From the NCBI GenBank assembly GCA_027061805.1, contig JAMOWA010000046.1, positions 1 to 34,060 on the forward strand: a stretch of DNA of 34,060 nt, written 5' to 3'. Under the pieces are notes generated by a model. It was not told the origin of the DNA and searched no databases. It saw only the letters and a list, made by a program, of their open reading frames with translations. The stretch's first letter is position 1, and the number at the start of each line of letters is the position of its first letter. The position numbers and the translations under genes are program-made. This document shows, piece after piece, positions 12,213-19,859 of this stretch. The stretch comes from Thermoanaerobaculia bacterium. Its GTDB lineage: Bacteria > Acidobacteriota > Thermoanaerobaculia > Thermoanaerobaculales > Sulfomarinibacteraceae.

Positions 12213-12284
12213 CGCGGGCAATGACCGGCAGCCCGCCGCACAGTGCGTCGTGGTCCCGGGGGATCCGGCACAACGGAGGTCGAC

Positions 12285-14006
12285 ATGGCGAAGGCTCGTT
12301 CGTGGTTCCTGGGTGGATGTCTCGCGGTCATCGCGGGCATGGTGTTCATGTTCTTCATGGGTCGCTTCCTCATGGCGCCCCACGTTCCCGGCAGGGCCAT
12401 CCTCTCCCTGCGCTTCGATGGTCCCATCGCCGAGATCACCAGCGAGGATCCCTTCGCCGAGATCCTCGGGGAGCAGCCGTTGAGCCTGCGGGACCTGCGG
12501 CGGGCGCTGGTGGCCGCGGCGGATGACGATCGCATCGTCGGTGTCCGCGTCAGGATGGACAGCTTCGGTGGTGGGTTTGCAACGGCCCAGGAGGTGAGGG
12601 GTCTCCTCCGGAGCGTGAGCCGCGCGGGCAAGTGGACCGCCGCCTACATGGACACGGCGGGCGAGTTCACCCCGGGGAACATGGTCTACTACGTGGCCTC
12701 GGCCTGTGACGAGGTCTCCATGAACTCCATGGGTGACCTCAACCTCATCGGGCTCTCGGTCCGTTCGCCGTTCATCAGGGGGACACTGGACAGGCTGGAG
12801 ATCAGGCCCGAGTTTCCGGGGCGAGGCGCGTACAAGACGGCACGTTACCTGTACACCGAGCGCGACTTCACCCCCGAGCATCGCGAGATGATGGAGTGGC
12901 TCGTCGATTCGCTGATGGGTCAGATCACCAGGGACATCGCCGCGGCCCGGGACACCACCCCGGAGATGGTCCGGGAAATCATCGACCGTGCGCCGCTCCT
13001 GGGGAGCGGGGCCGTCGACGCGGGCCTGGTGGACAAGCTGGAGGACTGGACGGAGTTCAACAACCGGCTCAAGGAGAAGGACGACGCCGGGTTCGTGGGC
13101 CTGAAGCCCTACCTCCAGGGCCTGAGGAGACCCTCCCTGGGTCAGAAGATTGCCGTGGTCACCGCCACCGGCGCCATCATGCGGGGCAAGAACGGCCGGA
13201 ATCTCAACCCGCTCCTCGGAGGGGAGATCATGGGTTCGGAGACCATCTCGACGGCGTGGCGGAAGGTCCGGGAGACCCGTGGGATCAAGGCCGTGGTGTT
13301 CCGGATCGACTCCCCCGGCGGCAGCGCGGTGGCCTCGGAGATCATCCGGCGGGAGATGGCCAGGACGGCGGAGGATCTCCCCGTGGTGGTCTCCATGTCC
13401 AACCTCGCGGCCTCGGGCGGCTACTGGATCACCTGTGGTGCGAGGAAGATCGTGGCGGAGCCCGGAACGCTCACGGCGTCCATCGGGGTCTTCGGCGGTC
13501 ACCTGAACATGGACGGCTTCTGGAGGAACAAACTGGGCGTCACCTTCGGCCGGCTCGACGCCGGGAAGAACGCCAACATCTACGGTGGCCTGGAGGACTG
13601 GAACGACGGGCAGCGGGCCATCGTCGACAGGATGCTGGACCGGATCTACGACGAGTTCCTGGACAGGGTGGCAGCCAGCCGTGGGATGACCCGGGAACAG
13701 GTGGATGCCATGGCCCGTGGGAGGGTCTTCACCGGGGAACAGGCCCTGGAGAAGGGGCTCGTGGATGCCCTCGGTGGCCTGGACGTGGCCATCGCCCAGG
13801 CCAAGGAGCTGGCCGGCATCTCGCCGGAGACGGCGGTCACGCTGGTGGACTTCCCCAAGCCGGAGCCGTGGTGGAAGCGGATGATCGAGAAGGGACGGGA
13901 GGTCCGGGCGGGCACGAGCGCCGTGGAGGAGCTCCGGCAGTGGTGGGAGACGGGGGTGCTCCAGCCCCCCGGGGTGGTCTGGATGCCTCCCGTGTACATC
14001 CGGTGA
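12285..14006 (+). CDS. sppA: Signal peptide peptidase SppA, long form
   Basis: SppA is a membrane-anchored serine protease that degrades cleaved signal peptides on the outer face of the inner membrane. An N-terminal anchor spans about residues 7-29. Two tandem ClpP-fold domains follow. The catalytic dyad of the long (67K) form is visible: Lys184 in GAYKTAR of the first domain and Ser377 in AASGGYW of the second. The conserved DSPGGS is at 342-347. At 573 residues it is close to the E. coli form. The ATG at 12285 has CGGAGG upstream. A glycine-poor tail rich in Trp and Pro ends the protein. The next gene starts 22 nt downstream, so the two may share a transcript. Confidence 0.92.
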   Translation: MAKARSWFLGGCLAVIAGMVFMFFMGRFLMAPHVPGRAILSLRFDGPIAEITSEDPFAEILGEQPLSLRDLRRALVAAADDDRIVGVRVRMDSFGGGFATAQEVRGLLRSVSRAGKWTAAYMDTAGEFTPGNMVYYVASACDEVSMNSMGDLNLIGLSVRSPFIRGTLDRLEIRPEFPGRGAYKTARYLYTERDFTPEHREMMEWLVDSLMGQITRDIAAARDTTPEMVREIIDRAPLLGSGAVDAGLVDKLEDWTEFNNRLKEKDDAGFVGLKPYLQGLRRPSLGQKIAVVTATGAIMRGKNGRNLNPLLGGEIMGSETISTAWRKVRETRGIKAVVFRIDSPGGSAVASEIIRREMARTAEDLPVVVSMSNLAASGGYWITCGARKIVAEPGTLTASIGVFGGHLNMDGFWRNKLGVTFGRLDAGKNANIYGGLEDWNDGQRAIVDRMLDRIYDEFLDRVAASRGMTREQVDAMARGRVFTGEQALEKGLVDALGGLDVAIAQAKELAGISPETAVTLVDFPKPEPWWKRMIEKGREVRAGTSAVEELRQWWETGVLQPPGVVWMPPVYIR

Positions 14007-14028
14007 GCCTCCTGGAGGACCTCTCCCG

Positions 14029-14964
14029 GTGAGCTCCACCGGTCCGGTCCGGCACGAGACCGGAGGGTGGGGCGCCTGGATCGAGGGCGTCCGGGAAGTG
14101 GCCGCCGCGCTTTCCAGGCCGGGACCCGTCCTTCCGGACGGTCCACCGGGCAGGGACCTGGAGCGGTGCCCGTGGGACGGCGAGGGCAGGTCGGTGGTCC
14201 GGTGGGTCCGGACGGGGGCCGGGGATCCGGAGACCGCCGCCCGCACGCAAGTGGTGCTTGCCAATGCCGCCCCGGCGCTGGACCTGCTCCGGGAGAGGTC
14301 CATCGACTGCGTTCCCCTCCATGGAGCGCACCACCTGGGGGTGCTCTACCCTGGTCCCGGGGCGCGGCTCGTGGAATCGGTGGATCTCCTGGTCTCGCCC
14401 TGGGATGTCCCGCGGGCACGCCTGGTGCTGGCGTCCCGGGGCTTCCGGGCGGAGGAGCGTGGCTGGAAGCGTGTGGTCCTGGCATCACCCGAGGCGCGGA
14501 TCGTCCTCCACTGGGGTCTGGTGCCGCGTGGGTTCAGGGAGGCCCCGCTGGGACCCTTCCTGGAGGACGTGGAGCCCGCTTCCGGCGGTGCCGGACCACG
14601 GAGGATGCGGCGTGGGGCCGCCTGGGCGGCGCACAGGCTGCTCCTGGCCCGTGACCTGTGGCCGCCCGGGCCCCGGACGGCGCTCCACCTCGCAGAGGCC
14701 GCCGCCCTCGGTGCCGGGGTGCCTTCCGACGAGCGGGAGACCTGGGCCCACCGCACCGGGCTCTGGCGCCTCCGAAGTCTCTGGCAACGCTGTGACCGGA
14801 TGGAGGCGTGGGTCGAGGGCGGGGAGAGACCTCCCCGGGTCGACGACGCCCCCCCCCGTTCGGAGTGGGATGGCATCCGGCGGGTGATGGCACTCCAGGA
14901 TGGGGTGGCCGCCCGGGCCGAGGTGCCGCTCAGATGGTTCTGGGAGGGGTTTCGCGAGAGGTGA
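14029..14964 (+). CDS. Nucleotidyltransferase-like protein, probably degenerate
   Basis: The sequence resembles uncharacterised nucleotidyltransferases of the NTP_transf_5 type. In these, a KG motif and a DxD motif near RxxxDiDLLV form the active site, and a conserved H-W segment follows. Here the matching stretches are PLHGAHHLGVLY (96-107), RLVESVDLLV (113-122) and VLHWGLVP (159-166). The first lysine has become histidine and the first aspartate of the DxD pair has become serine, so catalysis is doubtful. The rest is rich in Arg and Pro. The GTG at 14029 lies 11 nt after GGAGG, a long spacing, and 22 nt after sppA. The assignment rests on one motif region and is moderate. Confidence 0.5.
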   Translation: MSSTGPVRHETGGWGAWIEGVREVAAALSRPGPVLPDGPPGRDLERCPWDGEGRSVVRWVRTGAGDPETAARTQVVLANAAPALDLLRERSIDCVPLHGAHHLGVLYPGPGARLVESVDLLVSPWDVPRARLVLASRGFRAEERGWKRVVLASPEARIVLHWGLVPRGFREAPLGPFLEDVEPASGGAGPRRMRRGAAWAAHRLLLARDLWPPGPRTALHLAEAAALGAGVPSDERETWAHRTGLWRLRSLWQRCDRMEAWVEGGERPPRVDDAPPRSEWDGIRRVMALQDGVAARAEVPLRWFWEGFRER

Positions 14965-14988: not shown

Positions 14989-17900
14989 TCAGCGCGGATC
15001 CGGGGGCGCCGTTGCAGGGAGGGCGGCGGAAAGCTTCTGGAGGTCCCGGGCGAGCAGGGGATTGAGCCGCAGGGCCTTCTCGAGCTCCTCCCGGGCCCGT
15101 GCCTCCGAGTCCCGTTTTCCTGCCGGTGATGCGGTGATCGCGGCCTTCAGGGACAGGAGCCGCGCCCGCTCCGCATGGGCCAGCGAGAGGTCTCCGCTCC
15201 GCTCGAGGGCCCGCCGTGCCCATTCCAGGCCCCGGTCGATCTCGGGGTCGGGCCTGCGTCCTCTCCGCAGCTCCCACTCCGCGGTGAGGCGGTGTAGCCT
15301 GGCCTGCTCCACCATGGCCTCCACGTACGTGGGGTTGAGGGAGAGGGAACGCCGGATGGCTGTCCTGGCGCGGTCGAGGGCATGGGAGGGATCGCCCCCG
15401 CGGTCCAGGGCCCACCGCGCCAGGACCAGGTGGGCCCGCGTCAGGATGTACCAGGTCTCCGCGTCCATGGGGTTGAGGGTGATGGCACGCCGCGCGGTCT
15501 CGATGGCGGCCCCTGCGCTCTTCTCGGGATCCTGCCCCGACCGCAGGTGATACTCTGCCAGGACCGCGTGGGCTCCGGCCATGTTGGTCCAGGTGGAGGC
15601 GTTTCTCGCGTTGAGCTCGCGTGCCCGGTCGAAGTCCTCGAAGGCGGGCTTCAGGAGAGGTTCAGGATCCCGTCCCTGGAGGGCGGCGAAACGGGCACGT
15701 TCGGCACGGGAGAGCCCCCGGTTGTTGTAGGCCACCCAGTCCTCCGGATACACGGAGATGGCCTGGCCGAGCACCGCCTCGGCCTGCCGGACGACGGTCT
15801 CCGGGTCCTGGCCGCTGTCCACGAGGATGTGGGCCTTGCCCCAGTACGCCGCACCGAGGTTGTCCAGGGCCACGAAGGCCCCCGGGCGCAGCTCGATGTA
15901 CCGCTCGAAGGTCTGGATGGCGTGATCGAGGGCCCCGCTCGCATCGAGACCCTTGCCCAGCTCCCAGAAGGCGCGCTCCAGCCAGACGAGGCCCAGCGAG
16001 TTCAGGGCCTGGGTGTGGGTGGGGTCGAGCTCGAGGGCCCGTTCCAGGCGTTCGGAGGCGCTCCGGAAGGACTCCAGGGGGTCCTTGCCCAGAGCCACGG
16101 CGGTCCTCGCCAGCTGCAGCTGGGCGAGGCCGGCGTAGGTGTTGAGGCCCGGATCGTCGGGGCGGATCCGGAGCCCCTTGTCCGCTGCCCGGACTGCCTC
16201 GTCGAGGACTGCCGAGGGGTTCGTCCCGTGGAGCATCTGGTACTCACCCCACTGGAGACAGACGAAGGCCAGGCCGGCGTAGGCGGGCACGAACCGGTCG
16301 TCGGCCTCGAGGGCCTGGGTGCACCGGTCCCGTGCCTCCTGGAAGACGGAGATCGGATCGGATCCGGCATCAACAAGGAGCATGGCCCGGAAGTTCAGGG
16401 TGTTGCACAGTCCCTCGTACCCCTTGGGATCGCTCGGGGCGATCCGGATCACCTCGGCGTAGGCGGCCCGCGCCCGCTCGAGGGCCTCCTCGGCCCGATG
16501 GACGTCGCCGTTCTCCCGTGCTGCAGAGAACCTCGCGATCTCCACGTCACCCTCGAGGGCCCTGGCCGCATGGAGCCACGGAATCCTGTCGATTGCCTGG
16601 TGGCACTTCGCGATGGCCGTGTCCATGTCATGCTCCAGGAAGGCGATCAGGGCCTCCCCGAACTCGGGGGCCTCCACGTCCACGGCGTGACCCTGGCGGA
16701 GCAGGCGTAGCGCGGGATCCCTGTAACGCTGGCCCGCCTCCCGCAGGAGCCGGCTCCGGGTCTCCCGGTCCCGCACGCGCTGGATGGTCTCGAGCTGCTG
16801 GCGGTAGAGGTTGGCCAGGACCATGCCCCACGTGAAGGCCACCTCCGGCTCGCGGTATCCCAGCTCCCAGGCCCGGGCCAGGTGCCGGTCGGCCACCTCG
16901 AAGTTCCCCAGCGCGAGATATCCACGGCCCAGGGCATACTCGCCGGGACCGCTGGCCGCACCACCCACATTCCGGACCGTGGACTCCAGCTCCTCCAGCC
17001 GGCTCCTGAGCTCCTGGATCTCCGGACCGATGGGATGGAGGGGCCGGGCGAGGATCATGCGGAGTCCGTTCTCGAGTCGCGCGGTCTCCTGCGTGAAACG
17101 ACGGGCGAACACGGCCTGTCGGCCGGCCTGCCAGGAGGTCCACGCAACCCAGGCTGCAGAGGCCACCACGGTGGTGATCAGTGCGCCGAGAGCGGCAGAG
17201 GCGACCCTGTTGCGCCGCATCCAGGACAGCCCCTGGGTCACCAGGGTGACCGGACGGGCGCGAACGGGCTCTCCCGCCAGCCACCGGTCCAGGTCCGCGG
17301 CAAGCTCGAGGGCGGTGGGGTACCGTGCCGAGGGCTCACGGCTCAGGCACTTCATGATGATGGCTTCCAGGTCGCGGGGGACGTCACTGGCGATGCGGCT
17401 CAACGGCGTCGGGTCCCGCTCGGCCTTCTGGACGATCACCTCGAGGGAGTTGCCCGTGTAGGGCGGCCGGCCGGCAAGGATGTCGTACAGGGTGGCGCCG
17501 AGGGCATAGACATCGGCGCGCCGGTCCACGGGGGTGTCCTCCGGCGTGCCCTGCTCCGGAGCCATGAAGGCCACGGTGCCGAGGACCGCGCCGCTCATGG
17601 TGACCCGGGGGGCGGCCATCTCGCGGGCCAGCCCGAAGTCCACCACGTAGGGCTTGTACTGGCCCGAAGGGAGACGCTCCACCAGGATGTTTCCGGGTTT
17701 CACGTCGCGATGGACGAGACCGTGCTCGTGGGCCGCGTGAAGGGCCAGGGCCACGTCCCTGGCGATCTCCACCTTTTCCCTCAGGGAGAGCTCCGGGGCC
17801 AGGTGCGAGAAGCTCCTGCCCTTGATGAGCTGCATGGCGATGTAGGGGCGGCCCTCCACCTCGCCGACCTCGAAGATGGGGCACACGTTGTCGTGCTCCA

Positions 17901-18399
17901 CACTGGCCTGGACCCGGGCCTCCTGGAGGAACCTCCGGACCATCTCCGGATCCTCGGTGTGGAGGAACTTCAGCGCGACCCACCGCTCCAGGCGGGGATC
18001 GAAGGCGCGATAGACCCTGCCCATTCCCCCCTCGCCCAGGAGATCGGTCACCCGGTACCGGCCCCAGTTCCGGGTGGCCTCCGGTGGCGAGGCGCCCGGC
18101 TGGAAGGCTGACTGCTCTCTGGAGATGAAGGTGGCGGGCGTGGTGTGGGTGGTGGGTATGGGGGCCGTGGGCGGCCTGGAGGGCGGATCCTTCAGGATCT
18201 CGTCCTCGAGCTTTTCCACCTGTTCCCTCCGGAGCACCCCCCAGCTGATCAGGAGGGCGATGCGCCAGCCCCATCGTCCCGGGGGCAGTGTGCGCTCCTC
18301 CTCCTCCGCCGACCGTTCCACGGACTCCAGGTCCTGCTCCGTCACCAGACCCCTGGTCATGGCGAGAGCGAGGATCTTGAGTTCGAGCTTCTGATCCAC
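14989..18399 (-). CDS. Ser/Thr protein kinase with 46-residue TPR-like repeats
   Basis: A Hanks-type kinase of 1136 residues. Residues 1-75 form a small helical region. The kinase domain runs from about 114 to 375, with the P-loop GEGGMGRVY (122-130), Lys144 in VALK, HRDVKPGN (230-237), DFG (254-256) and APEQ (280-283). All key catalytic residues are present. One membrane segment follows at about 398-420. The remainder, presumably outside the membrane, is helical, and from 679 on has repeats beginning GxDP with an exact 46-residue period. I choose the GTG start (complement of 18397-18399), because GGAGG lies 8 nt upstream and longer frames run into the repeat element beyond the promoter. The substrate and stimulus are unknown; an envelope-sensing role is inferred from the topology. 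Confidence 0.9.
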   Translation of the reverse strand: MDQKLELKILALAMTRGLVTEQDLESVERSAEEEERTLPPGRWGWRIALLISWGVLRREQVEKLEDEILKDPPSRPPTAPIPTTHTTPATFISREQSAFQPGASPPEATRNWGRYRVTDLLGEGGMGRVYRAFDPRLERWVALKFLHTEDPEMVRRFLQEARVQASVEHDNVCPIFEVGEVEGRPYIAMQLIKGRSFSHLAPELSLREKVEIARDVALALHAAHEHGLVHRDVKPGNILVERLPSGQYKPYVVDFGLAREMAAPRVTMSGAVLGTVAFMAPEQGTPEDTPVDRRADVYALGATLYDILAGRPPYTGNSLEVIVQKAERDPTPLSRIASDVPRDLEAIIMKCLSREPSARYPTALELAADLDRWLAGEPVRARPVTLVTQGLSWMRRNRVASAALGALITTVVASAAWVAWTSWQAGRQAVFARRFTQETARLENGLRMILARPLHPIGPEIQELRSRLEELESTVRNVGGAASGPGEYALGRGYLALGNFEVADRHLARAWELGYREPEVAFTWGMVLANLYRQQLETIQRVRDRETRSRLLREAGQRYRDPALRLLRQGHAVDVEAPEFGEALIAFLEHDMDTAIAKCHQAIDRIPWLHAARALEGDVEIARFSAARENGDVHRAEEALERARAAYAEVIRIAPSDPKGYEGLCNTLNFRAMLLVDAGSDPISVFQEARDRCTQALEADDRFVPAYAGLAFVCLQWGEYQMLHGTNPSAVLDEAVRAADKGLRIRPDDPGLNTYAGLAQLQLARTAVALGKDPLESFRSASERLERALELDPTHTQALNSLGLVWLERAFWELGKGLDASGALDHAIQTFERYIELRPGAFVALDNLGAAYWGKAHILVDSGQDPETVVRQAEAVLGQAISVYPEDWVAYNNRGLSRAERARFAALQGRDPEPLLKPAFEDFDRARELNARNASTWTNMAGAHAVLAEYHLRSGQDPEKSAGAAIETARRAITLNPMDAETWYILTRAHLVLARWALDRGGDPSHALDRARTAIRRSLSLNPTYVEAMVEQARLHRLTAEWELRRGRRPDPEIDRGLEWARRALERSGDLSLAHAERARLLSLKAAITASPAGKRDSEARAREELEKALRLNPLLARDLQKLSAALPATAPPDPR
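15121..16365 (-). repeat. Nine tandem 138-bp (46-residue) units inside the kinase gene
   Basis: Units begin at residues 679, 725, 771, 817, 863, 909, 955, 1001 and 1047 with GSDP, GTNP, GKDP, GLDA, GQDP, GRDP, GQDP, GGDP and GRRP. Each of the eight intervals is exactly 46 residues. Inside a unit are an Ala-rich helix with A/L at fixed places, a turn often written LxP, and a second helix with conserved Ala and Gly. A weaker unit precedes at 631 (48 residues long), and a partial one follows from 1094. Confidence 0.85.
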
Positions 18400-18422
18400 G
18401 AGAGGAGCCTCCTGATGGGCCG

Positions 18423-18444
18423 ATTCTACCGCAAGAATCATTCT
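18423..18444 (-). promoter_or_regulatory. Kinase promoter with palindrome
   Basis: On the minus strand CGG-TAGAAT (the -10 box is the complement of 18423-18428) gives a leader of about 18 nt before the GTG start. The perfect 11-bp palindrome AGAATCATTCT (18434-18444) sits in the spacer just upstream and is a candidate operator. Confidence 0.45.
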
Positions 18445-18491
18445 CATGTCCTGGTCGGGGTATGATACAGGCCCTCCCGGGGCAGGCCCCG

Positions 18492-18661
18492 GCCCGGATT
18501 CTTCACGGGGGTTCGTCGCGAGCCGCCGCCCGGGGTGGCGTTCCCTCAAGTGCGGATGAGAGGCGGCGCGCCCCGAGCACATCGGGCGACCGGACCGAGA
18601 CACCGCCTCCGGGAATGGTGGATCGCTCCGGGCAGTCGGAGCATCGTGAACAATCCGGGCT
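18492..18661. mobile_element. MITE-like element, copy B, with terminal inverted repeats
   Basis: The left end is GCCCGGATTCTTCACGGGGG, and the right end read on the minus strand is AGCCCGGATTGTTCACGATG, nearly the same as the left end of copy A. The element is in the same orientation as copy A on the plus strand. The middle diverges, but the inner right part (GAGACA-CGCC-CCGGGAATGG and following) is clearly shared. The right end overlaps the TAG stop codon of the thiolase gene (complement of 18660-18662). It has no coding frame. Confidence 0.75.
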
Positions 18662-19859
18662 AGGGCGCGGCCTCCAGGACCTCGCCGCTGCCGATGCCAC
18701 CGCCCACGCAACGGCTGGTCACGCCCAGGCGACCGCCGGCGCGGCGCAGCTGGTGCACCATGTCCACCACCTGGCGGGCGCCGGTGCAGCCCACGGGGTG
18801 CCCGAGGGAGATGCCGCTGCCCCAGAGGTTGGTCCTGTCCTCCGGGAGGCCGGGAAGGGAGTGGAATGCGGCGGCCAGCACCGCGGCGAAGGCCTCGTTG
18901 AGCTCGAACAGGTCCACGTCGGCCAGGGTGATCCCGGCACGCTCGAGGAGCGGGGGAATCACCTTGAATGCGCCCTCGCCCATGTAGGCCCGCTCGACAC
19001 CCATGTTCCAGAAGGCCCTCAACGTGGCCAGGGGCCGCAGGCCAAGACGTTCGGCCGCCTCCTGGCTGGCCAGCACGAGCGCGGCGGCAGCATCGTTCAT
19101 GGTGGAGGCATTGAGGGTCGTGATGGTGCCACCGTCCCGCTTGAAGTAGGGGCGTGCGGCCGCCAGCTCCTCGCGGGTCACGGGGCGTGGTCCCTCGTCC
19201 CGGTCGACCACCACGGGATCCTTCCGCTTCCGGGGGACCTCCACCGGCACCACGTAGCCGTCGAACCACCCCTTCTCCCACGCCTGAAGGGCGTTGTGGT
19301 GGCTCCGCCAGGCGATCTCGTCCTGCTCCTCCCGGGTGAGGCCGTGGCGCTCCACCAGCCGTTCGGTGAGGAGCCCCATGAGCTCTCCACCCTCCACGTG
19401 GGCGTCCGTGAGTGCTCCGAAGAGCCCGTCCACCAGCGTCATGTCACCGTAGAGCTGGCCCCGCGTGCGGCCGGTGAACAGGTACCGCGGCACGTTGCTC
19501 ATGGACTCCACTCCACCCGCCACACCGAGGTCGATCTCCCCGAGGAGGATCCGGCGGGCGATGCTGTGGATGGCGGCGCCGCCGGAGGCGCAGTTCTCGT
19601 GGAAGGTGGTGGCCGGCGAGGTGTGGGGGATCCCGGCCAGCTCGGCGGCGTTCCGGGCCACGTTCGGGGAGCGGGGGTCCTGCATGACGTTGCCCATGCA
19701 GGTGTACCGGACCTCCGCCGGGTCGAGGCCCGTCCGCTCCAGCACGGACCGGATGGCCAGGGTGGCCAGGTCCTCGGCCAGCAGGGGAGTGAGGCCTCCG
19801 CCGATGGCTCCGATGGGGGTTCTCACGGCACCGAGGATCACGACACGGGTCCGGGGCAT
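18660..19859 (-). CDS. Thiolase family acetyl-CoA acyltransferase
   Basis: Thiolases either cleave 3-ketoacyl-CoA (fatty acid oxidation) or condense two acetyl-CoA. The 399-residue product has the acyl-accepting nucleophile Cys90 in ENCASGG. It also has the NEAFAA motif, the catalytic histidine in GHPVGCTGAR, and the second active-site cysteine near 384 in CVGGGIG. This is a complete thiolase active site. Sequence alone does not decide between degradative and biosynthetic use. No other beta-oxidation gene is adjacent, so its pathway is open. The ATG (complement of 19857-19859) follows AAGGAGG by 6 nt. The stop codon TAG is shared with the end of repeat element B, so the last codon may have been set by that insertion. 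Confidence 0.93.
   Translation of the reverse strand: MPRTRVVILGAVRTPIGAIGGGLTPLLAEDLATLAIRSVLERTGLDPAEVRYTCMGNVMQDPRSPNVARNAAELAGIPHTSPATTFHENCASGGAAIHSIARRILLGEIDLGVAGGVESMSNVPRYLFTGRTRGQLYGDMTLVDGLFGALTDAHVEGGELMGLLTERLVERHGLTREEQDEIAWRSHHNALQAWEKGWFDGYVVPVEVPRKRKDPVVVDRDEGPRPVTREELAAARPYFKRDGGTITTLNASTMNDAAAALVLASQEAAERLGLRPLATLRAFWNMGVERAYMGEGAFKVIPPLLERAGITLADVDLFELNEAFAAVLAAAFHSLPGLPEDRTNLWGSGISLGHPVGCTGARQVVDMVHQLRRAGGRLGVTSRCVGGGIGSGEVLEAAP

Follow-up and report, generated by a model that had tools for sequence, protein, structure and literature searches.

The kinase gene and its surroundings

The window, the whole 34,060-nucleotide stretch of Thermoanaerobaculia DNA that was analysed, includes an open reading frame of 1430 residues on the minus strand (positions 14989 to 19281). 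The likely start within this frame is a GTG codon at 18399, with the sequence AGGAGG 8 bases ahead of it at 18413-18408, and the gene defined in this way (14989 to 18399, minus strand) encodes a transmembrane Ser/Thr kinase of 1136 aa that carries a TPR array. The protein kinase domain (17320 to 18057, minus strand) was matched by Pfam PF00069 with an E-value of 8.4e-38, and the motifs VALK, HRDVKPGN, DFG and APE could be read in it. With the PF00069 match and the catalytic K, HRD and DFG all present, the protein is a Hanks-type (PknB-like) Ser/Thr kinase. A single membrane segment, VASAALGALITTVVASAAWVA, lies at 17143 to 17205 (minus strand), where hydropathy peaks at 1.86 over 21 residues, and the 696-residue region C-terminal to it yielded only fragmentary matches to Pfam TPR models.

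Three parts can be distinguished in this region, all on the minus strand. The part nearest the membrane (16429 to 17079) is assigned 34-type, long and 48-type TPR units on the basis of weak Pfam TPR matches and of helices predicted for ectodomain residues 1-217. It includes the 34-residue TPR that adjoins the membrane (16849 to 16950), which bears the motif GPGEYALGRG, has invariant columns in alignments and is modelled as helices 40-56 and 60-72. Nine tandem 46-residue TPR units follow (15187 to 16428), and the array ends in a predicted C-terminal capping helix pair (15064 to 15186; model helices 632-648 and 652-672) that forms an imperfect tenth unit.

Genes for an S49 peptidase and a nucleotidyltransferase-like protein (NTP_transf_5) lie downstream at 12243-14964 on the plus strand, converging on the kinase gene. 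As this pair of neighbours is shared with only one relative (L036), no operon partner can be named, and the neighbouring genes do not suggest a partner for the kinase.

The 46-residue period and its constancy

Counted from the GTG at 18399, the turn motifs of the nine units start at residues 679, 725, 771, 817, 863, 909, 955, 1001 and 1047 and read, in order, GSDP, GTNP, GKDP, GLDA, GQDP, GRDP, GQDP, GGDP and GRRP. Only GLDA and GRRP depart from G-x-[DN]-P, and the interval from motif to motif is exactly 46 residues in all eight cases. An earlier note on this DNA, made from the sequence alone, had reported nine such motifs at exactly this spacing between residues 679 and 1047, and its numbering is exact with the GTG start. 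The array also lies where that note had placed it, at 15121-16365, but that range begins at the first turn motif, and the helical units, at 15187-16428, are shifted from it by about half a unit. Beyond the nine units, one further pair, with a spacing of 48, was found upstream.

When the protein was compared with itself (BLOSUM62), mean similarity was highest at lags of 46 (0.46), 92 (0.41) and 138 (0.09). The highest value reached at any lag in 100 shuffled controls was -0.44, and hence the period is not due to chance. The lag-46 signal of another locus, L148, was rejected, as it arose in the wrong frame and the unit profile described below found no units there.

The units differ greatly in sequence, with a mean identity between units of 23% (maximum 39%) in protein and 44% in DNA. 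In a comparison with the nearest relative (L035), they pair with their positional counterparts, all in order, at 43-65% identity, which argues that the array is old. The earlier note had held that the units are diverse and that their length is maintained by structure and not by recent duplication, and both views are supported. Even spacing left by recent tandem duplication, in the absence of any structural constraint, would suit the gain and loss of whole 46-residue units among relatives, but it is most improbable given the low identity between units and their match by position to those of the nearest relative.

The constancy of the period was assessed with a unit profile, for whose refinement 1068 units of related proteins were used. 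Such a search had been proposed in the earlier note, with freely varying unit lengths in related kinases named as an outcome that would speak against its reading. Across 108 related proteins, 728 of 955 spacings between units are exactly 46, a share of 80% when only spacings from 40 to 52 are counted, so that related kinases keep the length. Most of the remaining spacings are 45 and 44, and a spacing of 42 is rare (8 of 955). Deletions and insertions inside units of these proteins are confined to profile columns 13-27, near the place where helix A turns into helix B. Relatives also gain or lose whole units: set against this kinase, L008 carries an additional unit, and L010, L011, L014 and L015 each lack one.

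The profile reads spacings of 46 in this kinase and in two paralogous kinases of the same genome, and spacings of 34 in a 34-type TPR protein of that genome used as a control. The two further kinases with 46-residue units lie on contigs C43 (about 34400-37500) and C13 (about 36100-38900). The same genome also encodes, on contig C45 (L121, about 120000-121900), a Ser/Thr kinase with a TPR array of the kinesin-light-chain type and a 42-residue period, in which the 46-unit profile found no unit. TPRs of 34, 42 and 46 residues thus all occur in one genome.

Predicted structure and relation to known TPR classes

An AlphaFold2 model of the ectodomain, built on a 49-sequence alignment and with a mean pLDDT of 95.4, has nine identical units, each consisting of helix A (20 residues), a loop of 5, helix B (17 residues) and a loop of 4. 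The A helices begin at ectodomain residues 218, 264 and so on to 586, i.e. every 46 residues. In the model of a homologue from Sorangium cellulosum (pLDDT 93.2), eight units have the same 20/17 helices. The two longer helices per unit that the earlier note had anticipated are therefore found in the prediction it had called for, and not ordinary 34-residue TPRs joined by random linkers, which it had named as a result that would count against it. The G-x-D-P motif, which the note had taken for a cap at the start of each unit, is a conserved turn, but the model places it in the five-residue turn joining helices A and B. There, D and P would directly precede helix B, a position consistent with an N-cap role.

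Relation to the canonical TPR was judged from the unit profile. The TPR signature positions 4, 7, 8, 11, 20, 24, 27 and 32 correspond to profile columns 1, 4, 5, 8, 29, 33, 36 and 41, and the signature spacing is unchanged except for 12 additional residues between positions 11 and 20. All eight positions are kept. Among the 1068 units, column 1 is Y/W, column 4 is L in 61%, column 5 is G/A in 94% and column 8 is H/L/Y, while column 29 is A in 75%, column 33 is L/F, column 36 is A in 75% and column 41 is P in 94%. The insertion has conserved positions of its own, namely column 12 with a small residue (Ala/Gly), column 19 with G, columns 21-22 with D-P and column 26 with Leu. In phmmer alignments with designed TPR proteins, gaps of 12 residues were opened at the same site. 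Each unit is therefore a canonical TPR to which 12 residues have been added at the A-B turn, with both helices longer and the G-x-D-P turn joining them.

In the model, antiparallel helix pairs are stacked as a superhelix, with 34-type and 46-type units occupying one solenoid and the 34-type units at its membrane end. The TPR domain of OGT (PDB 1w3b) aligned end to end, with 388 of 388 residues matched to model residues 136-647 (Z 22.3, rmsd 3.2), and both OGT and SPINDLY ranked high in a Foldseek search with the ectodomain model. Given the eight signature positions with their fixed 12-residue insertion, the full-length match to OGT and the 34-type units in the same solenoid, the proposal in the earlier note of a solenoid distinct from TPR is not supported. 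As judged from profile and model together, the array is an OGT-like TPR superhelix and a length variant of TPR, to be placed as '46PR' beside 34PR and 42PR, and no new fold. Strict spacing free of insertions and deletions is usual in canonical TPR arrays too, and the unusual feature of this array is its unit length only.

If the region consisted of ordinary 34-residue TPRs whose linkers were 12 residues long by coincidence, this would account for the piecewise matches of Pfam TPR models to the array. It would also suit the separate matches of the start of helix A and the end of helix B to 34-residue TPRs. The extra residues, however, are mostly helical and predicted with high confidence, they are patterned throughout the 1068 units at the insertion columns given above, and the 20/17 helices recur in the Sorangium homologue, all of which leaves this explanation with very little credit.

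The 42PR class was reportedly founded in a 2015 paper by Marold. TPR classes are named by unit length as nPR, 34PR and 42PR being the named examples (PMC5642895; reviewed in PMC11514114). All nine units of the kinase array are 46 residues long, which sets them apart from both of these, including the kinesin-light-chain type. With 34PR, represented by the OGT TPR domain and by designed CTPR arrays, the array shares the signature positions, the helix-turn-helix unit and the superhelix, and differs by the 12 residues added at the A-B turn, the helices of 20 and 17 residues and the G-x-D-P turn. The TPR of kinesin light chain likewise has both helices lengthened and a regular spacing, but adds 8 residues per unit (3 in helix A and 4 in helix B; PMC5642895) as against 12 here. 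The Sel1-like repeat is shorter (36-44 residues), and the Pfam Sel1 model had no match in the kinase protein and matched only one of 49 relatives.

Apart from generic TPR models, only that of plant TOM20 (PF06552) scored above its cut-off in the kinase protein, matched at 15876-16082 (minus strand) with 24.3 and 23.1 bits against a cut-off of 20.6 and over positions 45-113 of 187 only; against the 1430-residue frame the score fell below the cut-off, at 20.0 bits. This model matches 15 of 49 relatives. Its alignment places 69 residues on 68 profile positions, nearly free of gaps and across a unit boundary, which suggests that similarly stretched TPRs probably exist in eukaryotes. TOM20 itself is a short eukaryotic outer-membrane receptor, neither a kinase nor a long array, and the likeness, one of sequence profile, extends over some one and a half units. 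No TPR class of 46 residues came to light in a literature search to which most subscription papers were closed.

Distribution and proposed role of the ectodomain

The stretched repeat was found in about 1000 units of related kinases from soil bacteria, mostly Acidobacteriota (including Holophagae, Thermoanaerobaculia, Blastocatellia and Geothrix) and Myxococcota (Sorangium, Polyangium, Myxococcus, Corallococcus and Archangium), with further relatives in Fischerbacteria, Aminicenantes and one Gemmatimonadetes MAG. In a sample of the phylum, at least 52 of 297 genomes have a match at 1e-10, a lower bound, as few candidates were scored per genome. A search of viral contigs with a 16-sequence alignment returned no relative. 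Kinase motifs precede the array in 76 of 80 arrays from named genomes, with a membrane segment between the two in 73 of these 76, and none was found upstream of the other four (L044, L049, L069 and L076). The 46-residue repeat is thus a real and widespread length variant of TPR.

In Planctomycetota, transmembrane Ser/Thr kinases have been described whose kinase domain is cytoplasmic and whose C-terminal part consists of periplasmic TPR arrays or of WD40 repeats, and mention is made of such kinases in myxobacteria too (PMC11032199). Their order of kinase, membrane segment and TPR array is that found here. That paper is not known to mention a 46-residue unit for them.

Within the ectodomain, conservation is highest in the 34-residue TPR adjoining the membrane, above any 46-residue unit; this TPR is nearly invariant across phyla (GPGxYALGRGxLALG), although the loci from named genomes were picked in part by the GPGxYALGRG motif, and its near-universality among them is not independent evidence. 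It is a possible site of coupling or dimerisation. Given that the membrane segment has positive charges on either side, the topology is deduced from the requirement of the kinase for ATP, by which the kinase domain would be cytoplasmic and the superhelix periplasmic. The putative role of periplasmic sensor or scaffold suggested in the earlier note is plausible, and that of a receptor is likely. The protein is probably a single-pass Ser/Thr kinase in which a periplasmic superhelix of extended TPRs binds a partner and thereby switches the kinase. The concave face of the superhelix would bind a protein, a peptide or an envelope component, and binding would alter how the membrane-near TPR and the membrane segment associate or are oriented. 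The kinase domains may then phosphorylate each other and downstream targets.

TPR superhelices often serve as scaffolds. The TPR of PknG is an example (PMC8546545), and the array might similarly gather envelope proteins and position the kinase with no on/off switching. The number of units differs among relatives, which suits a spacer or scaffold, but the conservation of the membrane-near TPR above the rest of the ectodomain fits signal transfer somewhat better, and a pure scaffold is considered rather unlikely. There is about an even chance that '46PR' is a TPR class as yet unnamed and makes up the ectodomain in a large kinase family of Acidobacteriota and Myxococcota whose members span the membrane. 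Its wall would be wider than that of the 34- and 42-residue classes and its groove geometry distinct from theirs, and the kinases would tune their receptor by the gain and loss of whole units.

TPR arrays are among the commonest receptor and scaffold domains of bacteria. A third length class, constant over several phyla and about 1000 units, would yield, with the two named ones, a natural series of 34, 42 and 46 residues, in which it may be asked how helix length sets the shape of the superhelix and its binding groove. The specific unit profile would also make accessible a large group of transmembrane kinases, the arrays of which are at present seen by Pfam as fragments only.
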